DNA of 64,000 nucleotides from Allacma fusca (taxonomy: Eukaryota; Arthropoda; Collembola; Symphypleona; Sminthuridae): positions 70,645,508 through 70,709,507 of the forward strand of contig OX359246.1 of NCBI GenBank assembly GCA_947179485.1, written 5' to 3'. The position numbers were made by a program, and so were the translations under genes. The notes below the pieces were generated by a model. The model ran no database searches, was not told the DNA's origin, and was given only the letters and a program-made list of their open reading frames with translations. Below, piece by piece: positions 1,400 to 39,100 of the stretch (positions are counted from its first letter, which is position 1; every line of letters begins with the position of its first letter).

Positions 1400-1670
1400 T
1401 GTCACGACATTATTAGAATAACCATAGTTGTTATTATTGAGTCAAACAATTATTACTAGTTTTAGAAATAATGAATTTATAATATTACGAAAGATATTAA
1501 TCAATGCTTATTACACGATGCTTACCTAACTAAACGACTACCATCTATTCGGTTGAATAAATTAAGGGAGGTCATTCCTGGTTTAGCTCTTGGCATAACT
1601 TGACCTATCTTTACCACTCTACCACTGAGCCACCCTACACTATTTCAATCTTACATTTTACATTCTTACA
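1400..1670 (+). repeat. 5' long terminal repeat
   Basis: 271 bp, TGTCACGACATT at the left and ATTCTTACA at the right end. It matches 4359-4629 with no difference I could find. The base right after it begins AGGCGCCGGT, where a tRNA primer-binding site should start. The expected TGG is not there, so the primer is unclear. The 3' third contains an antisense tRNA-like half (see 1611-1637). Confidence 0.92.
1611..1637 (-). other. tRNA-like 5' half with A box, antisense inside the LTR
   Basis: Read on the - strand, this part of the LTR begins GGGTGGCTCAGTGGTAGAG, which looks like the acceptor stem and D arm of a tRNA. It contains an A-box match TGGCTCAGTGG (1622-1632). No B box (GGTTCGANNCC) follows at the right distance, so it is not a working tRNA gene. 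The same sequence is in the 3' LTR at about 4570-4596. It may be a captured tRNA/SINE piece or chance. Confidence 0.4.
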
Positions 1671-1900
1671 AGGCGCCGGTTTTTAGTGACCTGTCCTCTC
1701 ATTTCACGGTATTTATATTACTCTCTACCTTCGAGTGACATTTCACACCCCTTACACAGTGACGAAATACATTATTTACATATTTTTTTTACACAATTAC
1801 ATTTTTTTACAATCAGTGACACCAACCTCCATTTACACTACTCATCACGAGTAACGTTTTACGAATACAATTTACCTCCTTGTGTAATCTCATTTTTTCT

Positions 1901-2272
1901 CAACCTACGGTAGGTCAATACGACTTGCCGGGTTGTGAAAATTAATTAGTGTGTTATTTAGTGTGATATTCTACGGTTTGGTTTAACAACCTTTACCGGA
2001 ATATCGTGAAGTGATATTTATTCATAATCTACGGTAGGTCTTAACGACTTTCCGGATTATTGAATTTTTTATTTTCTATAATTTCCTACGGTTGGGTGTA
2101 AAAACTTTTACCGGGAAATTACTCCTCCTCCACATTTCTTTTATAACCTACGGTAGGTCTCTAGACTTTCCGGGTTATTTTTTTTTACAGTGAATATCCT
2201 ACGGTTTGTCACCTGACTTTCCGGGATATTATTATTAACCTACGGTGAATCTTCGGATTATTCCGGGTTATA
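1901..2272 (+). repeat. Array of seven covarying hairpins in the LTR-element leader
   Basis: Seven units share the pattern stem, TA bulge, CGG, inner stem and loop, CCG, stem. They lie at 1901-1935, 1965-2005, 2024-2060, 2079-2121, 2143-2178, 2193-2230 and 2236-2270. The outer stems differ in every unit but each pairs with its own partner: CAACC/GGTTG, GATATTC/GAATATC, ATAATC/GATTAT, TAATTTCC/GGAAATTA, ATAACC/GGTTAT, AATATCC/GGATATT, TAACC/GGTTA. The inner stem is AGGTC/GACTT in units 1, 3 and 5, GGTT/AACC in unit 2 and AATC/GATT closed by TTCG in unit 7. Such compensating change is the signature of selected base pairing. The array lies between the 5' LTR and the gag start codon, where packaging, dimerisation or translation signals are expected. 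Its function is unknown. Confidence 0.85.
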
Positions 2273-2331
2273 AAAAAAAAACAAAAAAAACAAAACAAAA
2301 ACATAAACAAAAAAAAACAAAAAGTGCAAAT
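2271..2331 (+). promoter_or_regulatory. A-rich leader segment upstream of gag
   Basis: About 60 bases made almost only of A with scattered C, directly after the seventh hairpin and about 150 bases before the gag ATG. Unstructured A-rich leaders can help ribosome entry or bind poly(A)-binding protein. This role is inference; the tract could also be simple-sequence expansion. Confidence 0.3.
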
Positions 2332-2477
2332 TTAGGGGGAACCCCTGCCCAATTTTTTCAAAATTTATAAACACTTAGAGAACTAGTGTGGAAGTCGCCG
2401 CGACCGGAAAATCTCTCACTGCCAACCCCCATAGTCCTCATCAATATAACCCTGACAGACAAGAGTAGATATTAACC

Positions 2478-3443
2478 ATGACTTCATTCTTACCTAATGA
2501 AATATTCTCCAACATTCCAACCTACGATGGACAATCATCATGCAAAGCTTGGCTCAAATCCCTGAACTACCGATGTACCCACTTCAAACTAACTGACAAA
2601 TGGAAATTTGAAAACATGGATTCTATATTACAAGGATCCGCTTTACATTGGTGGACCTTTTCTAATGATGTATTCCTAGAAAATCTGAATATTGCTAACT
2701 CCCAACTACGTTTCAAGGAATTTGAAGAACAAATCCAGAATGCATTTTCAGAAAAAGACGATAAAGCCATTGCTACAGCGGAAAATTCAACCACTATATT
2801 TCATGCTGAAACTGAACACGCTCGTGATTATATCTACAAGAAATTAAGTATATTCAAACGTATGGACCCCACAATGACTGACTCTTGTAAACTTGATTAT
2901 CTATACCAAGGACTACCTCAGGAACTAACCTGGAATATCCAACTGAAACTTGGAGCTGATGGTACCATCGACCAGTTCCAGAAACAGCTGGAGTTCTATA
3001 CTTCCAAATTACAATCTCAACACTCTCAACCCCCACAACAACAATCTTCAATGCCCATAACGAAACTTTATGAATACCCAATGACAAATGTCAACCAACC
3101 TCTACTACCAACACCGAATACATCAAATCAAATTCCAAACACATCTTTCCAAACAACAGCAACCACAGCGCATACTTGCTCATTCTGCAATACAAACACC
3201 CACACGCTACGAGATTGTCGATCTTTCAAACGTTGGCTAAATGAGATTAATATCGTTACCAGCAACCCAAATAATAACTATCAAAGACGAAACGACCCTA
3301 CAACTCAACAACAATTTGGACAACTCGAACAACAATTTCCTAATCGCAGCCTACATCAACTTAGTCATCTAAATACAATCTACGATTCAATCAGTGACCA
3401 CTACCCTTCAAACGAGGACCAATACTGGCGATCGGAAAACTAA
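2478..3443 (+). CDS. gag: Gag-like capsid/nucleocapsid protein of the LTR element
   Basis: 321 codons from an ATG to TAA, uninterrupted. Residues about 20-180 have the layout of the Retrotrans_gag capsid domain of Ty3/gypsy elements: an early W-L, then GSALHWW, a FKEFEEQIQNAF stretch and a DYIYKKLSIFKRM segment. A Q/N/P-rich linker follows (about 185-230). Then comes one CCHC zinc knuckle of the form CX2CX4HX4C at residues 234-247, and a 74-residue Q/N-rich tail. Gag would assemble particles and bind the element's RNA. A long intact frame fits a recent, possibly active element. It is cellular retrotransposon sequence; no envelope gene is present. Confidence 0.85.
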   Translation: MTSFLPNEIFSNIPTYDGQSSCKAWLKSLNYRCTHFKLTDKWKFENMDSILQGSALHWWTFSNDVFLENLNIANSQLRFKEFEEQIQNAFSEKDDKAIATAENSTTIFHAETEHARDYIYKKLSIFKRMDPTMTDSCKLDYLYQGLPQELTWNIQLKLGADGTIDQFQKQLEFYTSKLQSQHSQPPQQQSSMPITKLYEYPMTNVNQPLLPTPNTSNQIPNTSFQTTATTAHTCSFCNTNTHTLRDCRSFKRWLNEINIVTSNPNNNYQRRNDPTTQQQFGQLEQQFPNRSLHQLSHLNTIYDSISDHYPSNEDQYWRSEN

Positions 3444-4177
3444 ATAGCCTGGTGAAGAAGGGAGATCATCAGGCTACACAAGTCATCCCGGAAACCTCCC
3501 ACCGTATCAACAATTCCAAAACCAACCCAAAGCTCGTCCCATTAATGTCAATTGTATTTAATAGTCCTCCCACTCCCCCACGAAAACGGAAACATCCACC
3601 TTCGTTATCCCTTATTCCCAAAACGTTCCCCAACGCTCCATATACCCCAGATTATCCCCGTTACTTCCCGCGACAAGGATCTGATCCACGACACCACCGA
3701 ATTCATTCCACTACCAAGAAAAACATGTCTAACTCCCAACATCAAATGCCTGTTCTAGAAGATCTACACCGAAAAATGATCAAAATTCCCACACTACCCC
3801 GCACAGCATTCAAAAATGCAAAATCCAGCAAGCGAATAATTAATTACTCCTCATCTCCCAATAATTTATGCAGTCTTGCCCAAACAAATAGTTTCAGAGA
3901 ACTGAGCAAACAACTGAGATGGAATAGCCAACATAAATACCATCATAAGAACAACTGCAATAAAAGACATGTCAGTTTCCCAAGAAAGGACTTACAGCAA
4001 CGAAGACACTTTAGCAACCACTGTACAGAAAACAAGAATTACCCTACCTCCAATTCACCAAATGCCTCAAACACAACATTACCACCAACTTGTTCATTCT
4101 GTAATACTGGCAATCACAAACTGCGTGACTGCTCTGCCTTCAGACAATGGATAACAATGCAATCAAGAACACCATGA
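3398..4177 (+). CDS. Second zinc-knuckle frame of the LTR element, -1 relative to gag
   Basis: The -1 frame is open from just after a TGA (3395-3397) to a TGA ending at 4177, overlapping gag by 46 bases. There is no ATG near the start (first in-frame ATG 3545; GTG at 3452), so expression by -1 frameshift, reinitiation or not at all are all possible. The product is basic and rich in P, N, S and H. It ends with a CX2CX4HX4C knuckle (about residues 214-227 counted from 3452) plus F-R-Q-W, closely like the Gag knuckle followed by F-K-R-W. No protease or polymerase motif is seen. It may be a duplicated, diverged Gag 3' half. Confidence 0.5.
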   Translation, partial: PLPFKRGPILAIGKLNSLVKKGDHQATQVIPETSHRINNSKTNPKLVPLMSIVFNSPPTPPRKRKHPPSLSLIPKTFPNAPYTPDYPRYFPRQGSDPRHHRIHSTTKKNMSNSQHQMPVLEDLHRKMIKIPTLPRTAFKNAKSSKRIINYSSSPNNLCSLAQTNSFRELSKQLRWNSQHKYHHKNNCNKRHVSFPRKDLQQRRHFSNHCTENKNYPTSNSPNASNTTLPPTCSFCNTGNHKLRDCSAFRQWITMQSRTP

Positions 4178-4280
4178 CTACTACTAGAATAAACGTCAAT
4201 TAGTTAATTTCGAATCCATTGCTATGACCAGAAACCTACAGTGATAAGTGATTGACCTATAACACCCCCATGACGGAGAG

Positions 4281-4356
4281 ATGTCCCAGTCTCAAAACAC
4301 CCCACCCCGGGAAGGAGAATGTCCCAGTCTCAAAACACCCCACCCCGGGAAGGAGA
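4281..4356 (+). repeat. Tandem duplication (2 x 38 bp) carrying the polypurine tract
   Basis: Two copies, 4281-4318 and 4319-4356, each ending GGGAAGGAGA. The second runs straight into the 3' LTR. Confidence 0.9.
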
Positions 4357-4358
4357 AG
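4347..4358 (+). other. Polypurine tract (plus-strand primer)
   Basis: GGGAAGGAGAAG immediately before the TG of the 3' LTR, the expected site and composition for plus-strand DNA priming. An almost identical purine run lies 38 bases upstream in the duplicated unit. Confidence 0.8.
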
Positions 4359-4629
4359 TGTCACGACATTATTAGAATAACCATAGTTGTTATTATTGAG
4401 TCAAACAATTATTACTAGTTTTAGAAATAATGAATTTATAATATTACGAAAGATATTAATCAATGCTTATTACACGATGCTTACCTAACTAAACGACTAC
4501 CATCTATTCGGTTGAATAAATTAAGGGAGGTCATTCCTGGTTTAGCTCTTGGCATAACTTGACCTATCTTTACCACTCTACCACTGAGCCACCCTACACT
4601 ATTTCAATCTTACATTTTACATTCTTACA
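4359..4629 (+). repeat. 3' long terminal repeat
   Basis: Same 271 bases as 1400-1670. It is followed by ATATT, which matches the left flank. Confidence 0.92.
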
Positions 4630-4841
4630 ATATTGCCCTTATATCACTCATATGGTTACATGTGGGCCAGTGTTGGGGCTTGTGTGCTTTGTATAAATTT
4701 ATATAGCGATATAGGGACATATGTACGGCTGCGCTTGGACTGGACGTCCGTCACAAGCGAATTACATATATTAAATCTCGTGTGTCTCATTCTCTGCAGG
4801 GAAATCCACAATGAAAATTCCGGCTTTCTTTTTCCTCCTGA

Positions 4842-33100: not shown

Positions 33101-36100
33101 CTCGCCGATGCGACGCTCATCGAAGACCCTTCCGAGGGCTACGAGATAGATCCGAATACCGACGATGTCTCCATCTCCTCCCAGTCCAGCTACAGCGACT
33201 CCAGCAATTCTCAGCTGATCAAGAAGTCCATCGAGGCGGCCCACGGGGGTCTCGATTTTAAGATCATCCTCGATACGAAGAACGGTCCTCTAAGTATTCA
33301 TTTACTCGCACCGTCTGCTCAAGAAAAACACGCTTGGATCTCCGATATCTCCCAATGTATGGACAATGTCCATTTCAATGATTTGTTACACGGATCGGAC
33401 TCCGCATCGGTGGCAGTCCCTCACAGTGTCCGAACCGATCCGAAATTATTCAAGGACGATGTGGATATCCGATTTTCGAGGACCCTCAATTCCTGTAAAG
33501 TCCCCCAAATCCGATATGCCACGCCACAGAGGCTGTTGGAGAGACTGACGGACCTTCGCTTTCTATCCATTGATTTCCTCAATACCTTCCTCCTCACTTA
33601 CAGGGTCTTCACGGACTCGGTCACTGTCCTTGAGGCCCTAAAAAGGGTCTATTACAACGCTGAGCCCTTGGACTCTTGTGGGGATAAGTAAGATTTTTTT
33701 TTTTTTTTTTAAATATCTGCTAAAATATTTTTGTATCTGCTAAAAAATTTTTGTCGGTTACATCGATCAATTCTAGCGTGGATGGGATTGTAAAAGAAGA
33801 GGATGTAGTGAGGGTGGAGGGTTACCGTCGAATTTCGACAGCCTCCTCTGTCTCGGGCTACGGGACCGAGAGTGAGCGGGACCCAAATCATTTCTACGAT
33901 AATCGCGGGCCACACTGGCGTTGGAGCTTCCGGAAAAGTAAGTATTTGATTGGCCCATCCCATTACCCTTAACCATTTTGCATTTCTCCATTTTGTAATG
34001 CATTTTTTGGATTGTCCACCAAGTTCTGTACAATTACCATTTTGCCCATTGATTTTTTTGTAATGTTCCAAAAATCATTATTAGCTATTAGATCACTTAG
34101 GAGCAGATCGGGATTGGCAGTATCAGTGATATTTGGGAGATTTTTGTATTTTGTAAATTTTGGGGGTGGGGCATAAAAGCGGGAAAATTTAAATTGAGGA
34201 GGGGTTAAAAGAATAAATGTCATGGGAATAAAAAAAAATAGGATAATTATTGTCAAATATTTAAAAGGCCAGTAATAAATAGAGATAAATCCCCTAAAAA
34301 ATATTTTTGAGGCATGTAACCCAGCACTGGTAACTACAATCCCAGTACTGCTCTTTAACTTGCATTTTTGAAAATAAAATTGTGCGCTACAACAAACTGG
34401 ATTGTTTTTGACATGTTGAGTAGTGGAAGAGGAAGTTAAAAATTGTCACTTGATGCCCACCCCTGCAAGTCCACCTGCACGTAAGAAGTCAGTGACTCTG
34501 AGAGTAGAAGACATAGGTGGGCACCTGTTAGTTCCTCCTGGAGCAGCTGGCTGCTCCTCTAGTAGTGAGACACTGACTGAGCAAGTGAGTTGCACAAATA
34601 TCACAACCAAACTACATTTTTCTAGTTTTTTTTACAAAATTATTAAAAAAAAAAAAAATTTGCACGGAATCAATTTTTTTTCTCAATCAAATACATATGA
34701 AATTAATGGAATGCCATACAGAACGCTTCAAAGAAACAAAGACATTCGAGTGTAAACTCGGCTTCTTCGGACGCGTCCGAATCTGAGGAGGAAGTGCAAG
34801 CAGCCCCGAGCCCCAATGTTACTAATTGTAAGCCCACTATTGGTTAGTTTGTGAGTGTGCATGTTGTACCAAAAAAAAAACCATTTCCGATCGTAGCATT
34901 CATTTAGTGTAGATAATTTGAATGCCTGACTTACCATTTTGACTTGGTACCTGGTTTTTGCGGGGATTCAATATTTCAAGGGACCCGCTTCTTCTTGCAT
35001 GTGAAATCTTTGAGTTCCGGTTTTTCTGTTGTTGAGTAACGTCATAGGAAATCTGTGCAGGGGAATTTGGTTTTCCTCCAATTGTGGTTAGTTTTTGTGC
35101 AAAATAAAGTCTGGCGTAGATTTTTCAAAAAATTTGGGGTAAGTTTTTCAAAAAATTGAGGTAAATTTTTATATATTTGATTGAAATTTGGGGTATATTT
35201 TTCAAAAATTTACGGTACATTTTTATATATTTGACTGGAATATTTGGGGATCGATTTTCCCAAATTTTGTGATAGGCGTTTTAAAAATTTGAGATACATT
35301 TTTATATTTGATTGAAAAATTTCGGGGTAGATTTTCCCAAAATTTTGAGTAGATTTTATTAAAATTCGGGTTTGGTTTTATTAAAATTTTGGGCAGATTT
35401 TATTAAAATTTAGGGCAGATTTTATTGAAATTTGGGGCAGATTTTCTACGGATATTAAAAGATTGGGACGTGATGGATGGCTCAGTTGCTGGGCCGAAAT
35501 TGGCACAGAAAATGATGACAATGCGAGGAGAATGAAATTTGCTTGTGCAGAATGACTATGAGTGAAGTTGTTGTTGTTGCTGTTGTTGTTGTACACATAA
35601 TGTACCTTACAGACCCCAAAGAGTCCGGGAAATGGAGGGGACTTTCCGATGAGCAGAGTTCTCCCGTGCTGACGATGCATCGCGAGAGTTTCCAACAGAC
35701 TTCCCCTCCCTCACCTTTATTTGCGTACACGATAGAGTTTTGTTCGTAGGACTATGTTTCTGAGTTGAGTAATTATTCTCCACGGACCCTGTATTAAGCA
35801 ATGAATCCCTTACTTTTGCATGCACATTGAAGAGGTTCGGAACTCTCGGAGATTTCCCTTGTTCTTATCAATGCACACAGAACTGCACGTACGTACCATT
35901 TCCTAATTTCCATTCTTCGTATCTTCTCACACTCATTTATTACTACTCTTGGTATTTTCTCCTTCGCATGAAACCAATACTGCTTCAAGGCAGGTCAAGT
36001 CCATATTTACAGATACTTCAGCGTCTATTTCGAGTCTAAGTGTCTTAGGTTAATAACTCGGGTTTAAAATCATTGCTTGTAGATTTCAATTTCAAGTTTG

Positions 36101-39100
36101 AGTTCCAGTTTGAGTTAGAGTTTGGATTCCAGTTTGAGTTCAAGTGTGAATTCAAGTTTCAGTTCCAGTTTGAGTTCAAGTGTGAATTCAAGTTTGAGTT
36201 CAAGTTTGAGTTCAAGTTTGAGTTCCAGTTTGAATTCCAGTTTGAATTCAAGTTTGAGTTCAAGTTTGAGTTCAAGTTTGAGTTCAAGTTTGAATTCCAG
36301 TTTGAATTCAAGTTTGAGTTCAAGTTTGAGTTCAAGTTTGAGTTCAAGTTTGAGTTCAAGTTTGAATTCCAGTTTGAATTCAAGTTTGAGTTCAAGTTTG
36401 AGTTCCAGTTTGAGTACCAGGTTGAGTTCAAGTTTGAGTTCAAGTTTGAATTCAAGTTTGAGTTCAAGTTTGAGTTCAAGTTTGAGTTCAAGTTTGAGTT
36501 CAAGTTTGGGTTTCAGTTTAAATTCAAGTTTGAATTCAAGTTTTAATTCAAGTTTGAGTTCAAGTGTGAATTCAAGTTGGAGTTCAAGTGTGAATTCAAG
36601 TTTGAGTTCAAGTTTGAGTTCCAGTTTGAGTTCCAGTTTGAGTTCAAGTTTGAGTTCAAGTTTGAATTCAAGTTTGAGTTCAAGTTTGAGTTCAAGTTTG
36701 GGTTTCAGTTTAAATTCAAGTTTGAATTCAAGTTTGAATTCAAGTTTGAGTTCAAGTGTGAATTCAAGTTGGAGTTCAAGTGTGAATTCAAGTTGGAGTT
36801 CAAGTGTGAATTCAAGTTGGAGTTCAAGTGTGAATTCAAGTTGGAGTTCAAGTGTGAATTCAAGTTGGATTTCAAGTGTGAATTCAAGTTGGAGTTCAAG
36901 TGTGAATTCAAGTTGGAGTTCAAGTGTTAATTCAAGTTGGAGTTCAAGTGTGAATTCAAGTTGGATTTCAAGTGTGAATTCAAGTTGGAGTTCACTCATA
37001 TGTATTGGAAAAATAAAATTGATGATTTGTGTATTCTTTTTAATGTTAAGTGTGACTTGAACTCTATGTCACTCTATATTTGACGCTGATTTCAATTACA
37101 CAGCCTTAGAATCATCAGCTGGACTAAAAATGCACACTTGACTTGATTTTGAAGTTCTAGCATGAGTTTAAGTAACCGTATTAAACATTTGACCTTGGAG
37201 TAGTCACTTGACCCCGAATTTAAACTCAAATTTAATTACAAGTTTAAGTACCCAGGAAGCGCGTACTCCACGGACTTGACCTCTCTGTGGAGCCATAGAA
37301 TTGAAAGTAATTGGGAAAGGGCTGCAATGGACACTAATGGTATATTTTCCGTAGCTCCTTCACAGCTGAGGAAAGCCTCCTCGACGTCAATATACGCTTC
37401 AATTTTACAGCGCCGCGCGTCCAAGCAGCGCCCATCTTTTGTGGAGTCGGAAATGGGTGCCAGCTCCACTCCACGGTCTTCCTTCCAAACGCATGGCTCG
37501 GAGTCCCCTCAAATGAGCAGTAAAGCCGGAGTGGTGGTCACGAGCTCGCGCCAGTCCCAGAGGCGCTCGAGTAGCGCCTCGGCCGCCGCGGCTTTTGCCA
37601 TTGCCACAGCGGGCTCCACAAATTCCCGTCTTCCAGGACAAACGGAGATTGTGGTCCCGGAGAATGAGGAGCTCAAGTTCGTGAGGCCGCGGAAGGAAAG
37701 CGTTCTCTCGAGCGCTGCGACGATGCGCGTGCTGTCCGTACTCCGACATTGGGTCGCGAAACATTCCCAGGATTTCGAGGACCCCAAACTCCGGGACTTG
37801 ACTGTGTCCTTCCTCGAAGACATCCTTTGTTCGCCGGCGCTTCTCCCCGCAGAGAACAAGGCCGCATCGCAACTCCTCCGTCTCCTCACACGGGACGAGC
37901 CTAAGAAAGTAGACTTGGCCGTTTTATTAGCGCCCACACAGGTATCCGTCCTTCTTATTAAATACACTTTTAATCGGTTCGTAGAAAAATGCTCCGTGGA
38001 CAAAATTTAATTCCAGTCACTTGTGTCTACTATGACATTCAAAAAGTATGGATTGCTTCGGTATTGCCATTTGAAAAGTATGGATTGTTTCGGTAATGCC
38101 ATTTAAAAATTATAGATTGCTTCGGCGATGCCATTTAAAAAGTATAGATTGTTTCACCGATGCAATTTAAAAAGCGGATTGTTTCGGCGATGCCATTTAA
38201 AAAGTATGGATTGTTTCGCCGATGCAATTTAAAAAGCGGATTGTTTCGCCGATGCCATTTAAAAAGTATGGATTGTTTCGGTGATACCGTTTAAAAAGTA
38301 AATATTGCTTCGGCGATGCCATTTAAAAAGTATGGATTGCTTCGGCTATGCCATTTAAAAAGTATGGATTGCTTCGGCGATGCCATTTAAAAAGTATGGA
38401 TTGCTTCGGCTATGCCATTTAAAAAGTACGGATTGCTTCGGCGATGCCATTTAAAAAGTATGGATTGCTTCAACGATGCCATTTAAAACGTATCGATTGC
38501 TTCGGCGCTGCCATTTTAAAAGTATCGATGAAATTGGGAATGCCGTTTCAGGTGCATCGATATTTCCGTATTGATGCCGTCCCTAGAAATAAATACTGAT
38601 ATGCTGAAACCTTAGTCATCTGTTTTTCTAAAATTATTACATTATTGCTATGTCAAAAATTTAATCCTGATTTTTTATCAATGTTTTTACAGGCAGTGGA
38701 AAATATTGAGACGCTCTCGGCCTTGGAAATTGCTGAGCAGATGACGTACATTGATCACCAGATTTTTGTTTCGATACGATCGGAGTAAGTATTTTCAAAA
38801 GTCCAACTGTTGGATTTTGAGGTATTTAAAAACATTTCATATCTAACCAAAAATTTGTCTTGCAGGGAATTTTTGGGTCAGGCCTGGACCAAGGAAAATA
38901 AAGATCAGAGGGCGCCACATATCACAATGTTCTCCCGCCGCTTCAATGACGTCAGTCGCTTGGTGGTTTCGGAGATTATGAGACGCCCGTCCCAGGTAGC
39001 ACGCCTTCAGGCCATGGAGAAGTGGGCCGCCGTGGGCGACATCTGCAGGGTCCTTCACAATTTTAACGGGGTTCTTCAAATTTGTGCCGCTTTTACTAAC

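Follow-up and report, generated by a model that had tools for sequence, protein, structure and literature searches.

Tandem bulged hairpins in the leader of a Ty3/Gypsy retrotransposon family of Allacma fusca: a candidate docking array on the genomic RNA

Seven hairpins between the 5' LTR and gag

The window analyzed in this study, the whole stretch of 64,000 nucleotides (nt) from contig OX359246.1 of the springtail Allacma fusca, carries a long terminal repeat (LTR) retrotransposon at positions 1400-4629. The element is a young gag-only copy of a Ty3/Gypsy family, and its leader contains a row of seven hairpins (Table 1). A sequence-only reading of this stretch had proposed that each hairpin keeps a fixed core, CTACGG...CCGG with a two-base TA bulge, within an outer stem of its own sequence. 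All seven hairpins were found between the 5' LTR and gag at the proposed places (1901-2270, + strand), and the core and its bulge were borne out in every unit. CTACGG followed by CCGG with 5-60 bases between them occurs seven times in the 64 kb, always within 1905-2266 of the + strand. The proposal that the outer stems pair fully goes slightly too far: units 2-6 have 5-7 Watson-Crick positions, and units 1 and 7 have four outer paired positions beyond the C-G pair. Over the first five outer positions of the seven units, 33 of 35 are Watson-Crick pairs, and when the arms were swapped among the units, the observed pairing was reached by 2 of 5040 permutations, the identity being one of them. The spacing of the half-sites differs by 3 bases among the units. 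The C(TTCG)G tetraloop is seen in unit 7, as had been claimed, but is not conserved in some relatives (L013, L022, and L026; see below).

The array folded better than dinucleotide shuffles (z -4.59 and z -5.08). The fold energies of single units ranged from -8 to -21 kcal/mol; for units 1-6, only 0-3 of 300 shuffles folded as well, and unit 7 alone was no better than its shuffles (75 of 300 as good). In the fold of the whole leader (1672-2600), units 1, 3, 5, and 6 formed at mean probabilities of 0.90-0.97. Unit 6 is absent from the covariance-model hits in the window, presumably owing to an overlap between its flank and the flank of unit 7. By computation, the array is structured and lies within the RNA leader, as is expected of a packaging signal. 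No Rfam covariance model matched the window at the gathering threshold, and the assignment to a known RNA family was rejected.

The hallmarks of Ty3/Gypsy elements, namely TG...CA LTRs, a target duplication, and a polypurine tract, are present in the window copy, which has no pol. Among the 16 copies with an LTR end, GGCGCC follows the LTR in 11; the stretch read ends at GGCGC in four and before the motif in one. The leader of the window copy has no ATG against 7.2 expected under an order-1 Markov model, and has 13 CAT. The heptamer near the gag stop is what we take to be a slippery site. A 38-bp unit, repeated 2.3 times at 4275-4362 just 5' of the 3' LTR, overlaps the polypurine tract. The minus strand of the LTR (1580-1650) reads TGGCTCAGTGGTAGAG, which resembles the A box of a tRNA or pol III gene; despite this likeness, ARAGORN found no tRNA, and a tRNA origin was rejected. 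Elsewhere in the window, a long tandem repeat (36049-37068) codes LEFKLEF-like periods in several frames, and the gene-like frames look arthropod, with a possible resemblance to chemoreceptor and Ras exchange-factor exons.

Table 1. Features of the retrotransposon in the window (ORF, open reading frame; TRF, program for tandem repeats)
Feature	Position	Strand	Basis or remark
Target duplication ATAT	1396-1399 and 4630-4633		Read from sequence
5' LTR (TG...CA)	1400..1670	+	100% identical to 4359-4629; 272 bp in common including one following A
GGCGCC directly 3' of LTR, putative start of primer-binding site	1672..1677	+	Kept in relatives
Leader, 806 nt, ATG-free	1672..2477	+	
Hairpin unit 1	1901..1935	+	Exact pattern, arm pairing, covariance-model hit, folding vs shuffles
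Hairpin unit 2	1965..2005	+	As unit 1
Hairpin unit 3	2024..2060	+	As unit 1
Hairpin unit 4	2079..2121	+	As unit 1
Hairpin unit 5	2143..2178	+	As unit 1
Hairpin unit 6	2193..2230	+	Exact pattern, arm pairing, folding vs shuffles; no covariance-model hit in window
Hairpin unit 7, C(TTCG)G loop, weak alone	2236..2270	+	Exact pattern, arm pairing, covariance-model hit
A-rich stretch 3' of array	2272..2323	+	TRF: period 1, 52 copies of A, 72% matches
gag ORF, 321 aa, one CX2CX4HX4C zinc knuckle	2478..3443	+	
ORF2 frame, -1 relative to gag, second CX2CX4HX4C knuckle at its end	3398..4177	+	
GGAAAAC, putative -1 slippery site just 5' of gag stop	3434..3440	+	
Polypurine tract GGGAAGGAGAAG	4347..4358	+	Read from sequence
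3' LTR, then ATAT	4359..4629	+	

Copies of the array in the same genome and their covariation

A DNA search of the same 393-Mb genome yielded 29 matches at 27 loci (L001-L027), L001 being the window copy. Units of the exact pattern were found at 25 of the 27 loci (131 units, 69 distinct). We picked 37 dissimilar units and, after dropping one chance match in L021, aligned 36; when the window and the 27 loci were searched with the covariance model built from them, 154 hits at E<=1 were obtained, the window copy being counted twice. In the best 150 hits, the 5' side of the core was conserved as C 143, T 142, A 146, C 147, G 150, and G 150, and the 3' side as C 150, C 144, G 148, and G 147, counts that lean to the core because the model used to find the hits contains it. 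The alignment of whole arrays comprised the window and 20 of the 27 loci; L001, L004, L016, L020, L023, L024, and L025 were left out as duplicate, interrupted, or partial.

The array is not confined to gag-only copies. Pol follows gag in the -1 frame in the array-bearing L009, L011, and L013. Three consecutive 300-aa pieces of the L011 pol matched RVP and Peptidase_A2B (Ty3), RVT_1, and RT_RNaseH followed by Integrase_H2C2, and this order of protease, reverse transcriptase (RT), RNase H, and integrase places the family in Ty3/Gypsy (Metaviridae). L035, an extended stretch of the L011 locus, has 310-bp LTRs that are 100% identical and an array of seven units. LTR pairs of 100% identity were also found in gag-only copies, among them L010 (over 244 bp), L028, L029, L031, and L032; no LTR pair was found in L030 and L034. 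In the window and in eight further copies, GGAAAAC immediately precedes the gag stop, and GGGAAAC takes this place in the pol-bearing L009, L011, and L013 as well as in L006, L007, L008, and L014. A proline-rich third frame of 441 aa follows pol (L035:543-1865, - strand), with no env-like features by eye.

The zinc knuckle, CxFCNTNTHxLRxC, is invariant in seven Gags down to 53% identity. As to recognition of Gag as a capsid by profile or fold, it gave no Pfam match up to E 10, and its structure model (pLDDT 38.7) was too poor for searching. A search of the protein database with Gag found no homologue at 1e-3. No relative was found for Gag in viral_contigs and genome_contigs or for the RT piece in viral_contigs, and a scan of viral_contigs for the hairpin pattern gave 0 matches. 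At 1e-40, 1902 relatives of the RT piece were found; among those listed (120, with 41-56% identity), one is named from the springtail Allacma fusca.

The identities of array and gag disagree. In Gag clade 2 (L006, L008, L009, and L014), nucleotide identity to the window gag is 63-64% over the first 600 nt of the latter, and the arrays are 92-96% identical to the window array from the first to the last model hit. L019, L021, L022, and L026 have a gag 83-89% identical to that of the window and a shorter array (type B) of 70-76% identity, counted in the same way. Thus, leader and gag recombine. L010 has a recombinant leader: its gag and tail are 99-100% identical to the window copy, and its leader 5' of the array just 77%. 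L029 (L003/L004; G000:C9:8168000-8177500) comprises two tandem gag-only copies with a common middle LTR, in which 3470 bases are repeated at 100% identity.

ATG is depleted in the leaders of the family, with 27 observed against ~152 expected in 19 of the 20 listed copies; L015, which bears an insertion, was left out (38 against 42), and four copies in which the LTR was not found were counted from the array start. The depletion suggests that the leader is scanned and does not say what the hairpins do.

In the alignment of 36 distinct units, 81.5% of the cells were paired against 72.6% after shuffling, and covariation was 0.321 against 0.179 (0/500), with slid versions at 0.09-0.16. With 87 distinct units, the corresponding values were 83.1% against 73.7% and 0.337 against 0.179. 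For the 87 units, we used in addition a phylogenetic null on two trees, in which the tree and the count of changes in each column are preserved. The summed APC-G of 235 exceeded the null maxima of 112 and 143 (0/500 on each tree), the paired fraction of 0.831 was reached by 0 and 1 of 500 nulls, and the top two column pairs by score overall both belong to the structure. Compensatory double changes sit on 6-7 branches. The summed covariation thus exceeds a null that preserves the tree.

Covariation is found mostly between units and between array subtypes; the orthologous units of type-A copies vary little and hence have little covariation to show. Paired changes include one at 1901-1935 (C-G to T-A, in one copy) and, between subtypes, those at 2194-2229 (A-T to G-C) and 2198-2225 (C-G to T-A), each of which two of the five type-B copies show. 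Across the 16 rows of type A, off-majority cells amounted to 1.8% in bulge and core (4/222 and 16/889), 1.5% in the outer stem (13/892), 4.7% in the apical part (90/1927), and 7.5% in the linkers (141/1871); gaps made up 4.9% of the linkers and 0.4-0.9% elsewhere. G-U cells outnumber A-C cells by 108 to 40 overall and by 41 to 9 in the outer stems, an asymmetry that supports the sense RNA as the strand under selection.

Other arrays in more distant gag relatives

A search of the genome with Gag gave at least 126 matches, with 124 of 642 candidates scored. We chose 20 distant loci outside the matches of the array search, with Gags about 49-83% identical, and took their leaders. None of the 20 leaders contains a window-type unit at E<0.01 (four hits at E<=1, the best 0.036), and the idea that the array defines the family was rejected. 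The sequence-only reading had named absence of the array from most family copies as an outcome that would speak against it. Such absence applies to the window-type unit, but other tandem arrays occupy the leader position in 15 of the 20. An ACGGTTT..CACTACCG array was found in L041, L042, L043, L046, L047, and L056, GACC[AT]G boxes in L037, L038, L048, and L049, a GTACCA array in L051-L054 (with TGGTTA too in L051-L053), and a GGTTGA/CTGACC array in L055. No array is visible in L050 (z +0.7 and +0.9 in the scan described below and +1.0 as a stretch), L044 is a satellite, and L039, L040, and L045 have no clear array. One leader stretch of L047 holds 14 CTACGG in near-identical hairpin units, a recent expansion.

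Twelve stretches of the distant leaders, picked for repeats, were folded: 10 of the 12 lay at z -3.2 to -7.6, compared with -2.4 to +1.3 for eight background windows. The two not below -3 are L038 (z -1.6) and L040 (z +0.55; mostly LTR and flank), and the ten include L045, the repeat of which (GTACCC) may not be a leader array. When overlapping windows were scanned, z<=-3 was reached by 26 of 90 leader windows and 4 of 60 background windows, the lowest of the latter (z -18) presumably lying inside a repeat. At least one such window was found in 15 of the 20 distant loci, counting the satellite L044 and L045. With the chosen stretches and the scan taken together, 13 of the 15 loci with recognized arrays reach z<=-3, the exceptions being L037 (-2.5) and L053 (-2.3).

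By eye, we recognized a core hairpin shared by several of these arrays, G(Y)GU-U, inner stem, loop, stem, and U-ACC, plus an outer stem. In 24 leaders (L044 being left out), it occurs 25 times in sense and 0 times in antisense, against 0.2 in shuffled sequences; the occurrences spread over 17 of the 24 leaders, and 16 of the 25 lie in 12 of the 19 distant ones. The background gave 1 in 59 kb on both strands. Among the array classes of the sister lineages, the inner arms of class C pair better with their own partners than when swapped (0/2000). Altogether, the architecture outlasts the sequence across sister lineages. The downstream parts of the leader (window about 2330-2440), a GGGGAAACCCC-like and a GTCGCCGCGAC-like stretch, recur by eye in L038 and L056 with differences, despite unlike arrays; the GTCGCCGCGAC-like stretch is near-palindromic and could be a dimerisation site.

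Possible roles of the array and comparison with known leaders

We propose, with a probability of roughly 0.5, that the array is a multivalent docking platform for an RNA-binding protein on the genomic RNA, most likely the element's own Gag, and most likely serves packaging. The analyses above support the structure of the array, its conservation, its sense orientation (through the wobbles and the core), its presence in copies with and without pol, and the occurrence of other arrays in its place among sister lineages. That the hairpins bind a protein is probable from these features; that the partner is Gag and the purpose packaging is a less certain step. The array would be a cis-acting RNA element of the Ty3/Gypsy genomic transcript, a row of bulged sense-strand hairpins in which each unit may present one and the same short internal loop (in the window C-UA-CGG/CCG-G, and across the wider family GGU-U.../...U-ACC) between helices whose sequence is free. 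The likeliest partner would be Gag with its invariant zinc knuckle, and the same Gag particles would package gag-only and autonomous relatives alike. Docking of a protein fits because the bulge or internal loop and the helices presenting it are kept and repeated on an RNA that is both message and genome. Packaging into common particles would fit since the array occurs in copies with and without pol and in two Gag clades that have the same knuckle. The variable loops argue against kissing-loop dimerisation by the units, which we set aside.

A wider proposal, which we regard as possible but doubtful, is a packaging code of the whole family set by architecture and not by sequence: rows of hairpins would share just the GGU-U/U-ACC internal-loop core; their helices would be replaced from lineage to lineage inside a single host genome, and recombination would exchange them among Gag clades. 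The pressure behind these changes would perhaps be the need to tell own from foreign RNA, or escape from small-RNA silencing.

Several observations weigh against the docking array and the structural evidence beneath it. Units 2, 4, and 7 form at just 0.37, 0.57, and 0.39 in the whole-leader fold. The 87-unit alignment, including its use in the phylogenetic-null tests, was fitted to the structure, and no single pair reached E<0.05 against that null (best 0.09 and 0.17). Two of five covariation measures were no higher than shuffles in either alignment: the number of pairs changed on both sides and the number of additional pair types were reached by 148 and 250, then by 415 and 358, of 500 shuffles. 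With one near-invariant G-U column removed, the wobble excess falls to 53 to 38. The array folds about equally on both strands (z -5.08 sense, -4.97 antisense), and in the antisense fold of the whole leader five units form at 0.81-0.99 and two at 0.00-0.03; the sense assignment is drawn from the wobbles and the core because the fold energy does not separate the strands. The core hairpin was defined on the sequences in which it was later counted, with related leaders counted apart, and the arm-swap tests were not significant for the outer arms of class C (444/2000), the inner and outer arms of class E (283/2000 and 87/2000), and class D/F (599/2000 and 1541/2000). Unpaired G is the usual target of zinc knuckles, and no conserved unpaired G was seen. 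The earlier claim of selection on RNA structure finds support in the summed covariation, the constraint, and the wobble asymmetry, and no pair is significant by itself.

Two alternatives likewise place the function in RNA. The hairpins could bind a host factor that exports the unspliced RNA from the nucleus or localises it, as in a constitutive transport element with repeated internal loops. Repeated loops are a feature of retroviral transport elements, which are known in simple retroviruses as far as the available part of the literature goes; the conserved part of the units is likewise a repeated internal loop within a helix, and elements with different Gags have the array in common. The sequence class changes by lineage within one host, however, which is odd for a fixed host factor unless just the GGU/ACC core is read, and we consider export unlikely. 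The array could otherwise tune the translation of gag, with 43S complexes scanning an ATG-free leader and moderate hairpins slowing them or recruiting a factor, so as to balance translation against packaging. The depletion of ATG and the A-rich stretch 3' of the array agree with this idea, but the former bears on scanning and not on the role of hairpins, the units fold at no more than -8 to -21 kcal/mol, and slowing needs no conserved bulge; tuning of translation is, in our judgment, less likely still than export.

The remaining two alternatives dispense with a role of the RNA fold. Hairpin repeats might arise and stay complementary through template switching or quasi-palindrome correction during reverse transcription, with no function. 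Units do duplicate easily, since leaders are mosaics and L047 holds its 14 near-identical CTACGG units. Such a mutational process leaves unexplained the rate of change in bulge, core, and outer stems, 4-5 times below that of the linkers, and the one-strand core that unlike arrays have in common; we regard it as improbable. The least probable alternative to us is an array of protein sites on DNA, an insulator or enhancer, as in the 5' untranslated regions (UTRs) of gypsy, ZAM, and Idefix or in the CGG-CCG palindromes of Sireviruses. Su(Hw) binds the gypsy repeat. DNA sites do not need varying flanks to stay complementary, the half-site spacing varies, G-U cells exceed A-C cells, and the units are no DNA palindromes because the TA bulge is on one side only; covariation and the one-sided bulge would speak against a gypsy-type insulator site, as judged from the sequences. 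On the other hand, precedents for DNA sites exist: in the available part of the source, 19 of 49 tested Drosophila LTR elements have tandem repeats in the 5' UTR, some of them insulators (PMC8872304), and the Sirevirus motifs have a CGG-CCG core (PMC2829016, as far as its available text goes).

A compact, repeated, and covarying hairpin is a concrete packaging candidate, open to testing one unit at a time, and the presence of several array classes within a single genome forms a natural experiment on how a recognition code between RNA and protein changes as the architecture stays. Among the matches listed from the open-licence literature, as far as their texts were available, no retrotransposon leader with an array of covarying hairpins was found. 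The closest comparisons are as follows. Tandem repeats are described in the 5' UTRs of Drosophila gypsy, ZAM, Idefix, Tirant, and accord, in the accessible text as DNA sites, with HP1 in ZAM and RpL22 on a shared motif (PMC8872304). The present array is likewise a tandem array in a Ty3/Gypsy leader; unlike those repeats, as far as that text describes them, it consists of bulged hairpins with covarying stems. Sirevirus motifs are similarly repeated and inverted CGG..CCG in LTR retrotransposons, but they are, in the available part of the source, symmetric palindromes of plant elements, located in the LTR and on the 5' side of env and read as DNA cis-elements (PMC2829016). The unit found here is asymmetric and lies in the 5' leader.

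TR-GAG is a type of LTR element with gag only. The window copy is like it in keeping LTRs, leader, and gag without pol, but differs in having pol-bearing relatives with the same leader array in the same genome. Among Ty3/Gypsy elements, even yeast Ty3 lacks precisely defined packaging sequences, according to the available parts of two sources (PMC11381356, PMC4974528). The array described here resembles the packaging leaders of retroviruses and Ty1/Ty3 in being structured RNA between LTR or primer-binding site and gag, presumably bound by Gag. The known leaders for packaging and dimerisation in retroviruses and Ty1/Ty3 have a few unlike stem-loops, whereas the leader of this family has 6-7 like units with one bulge motif.
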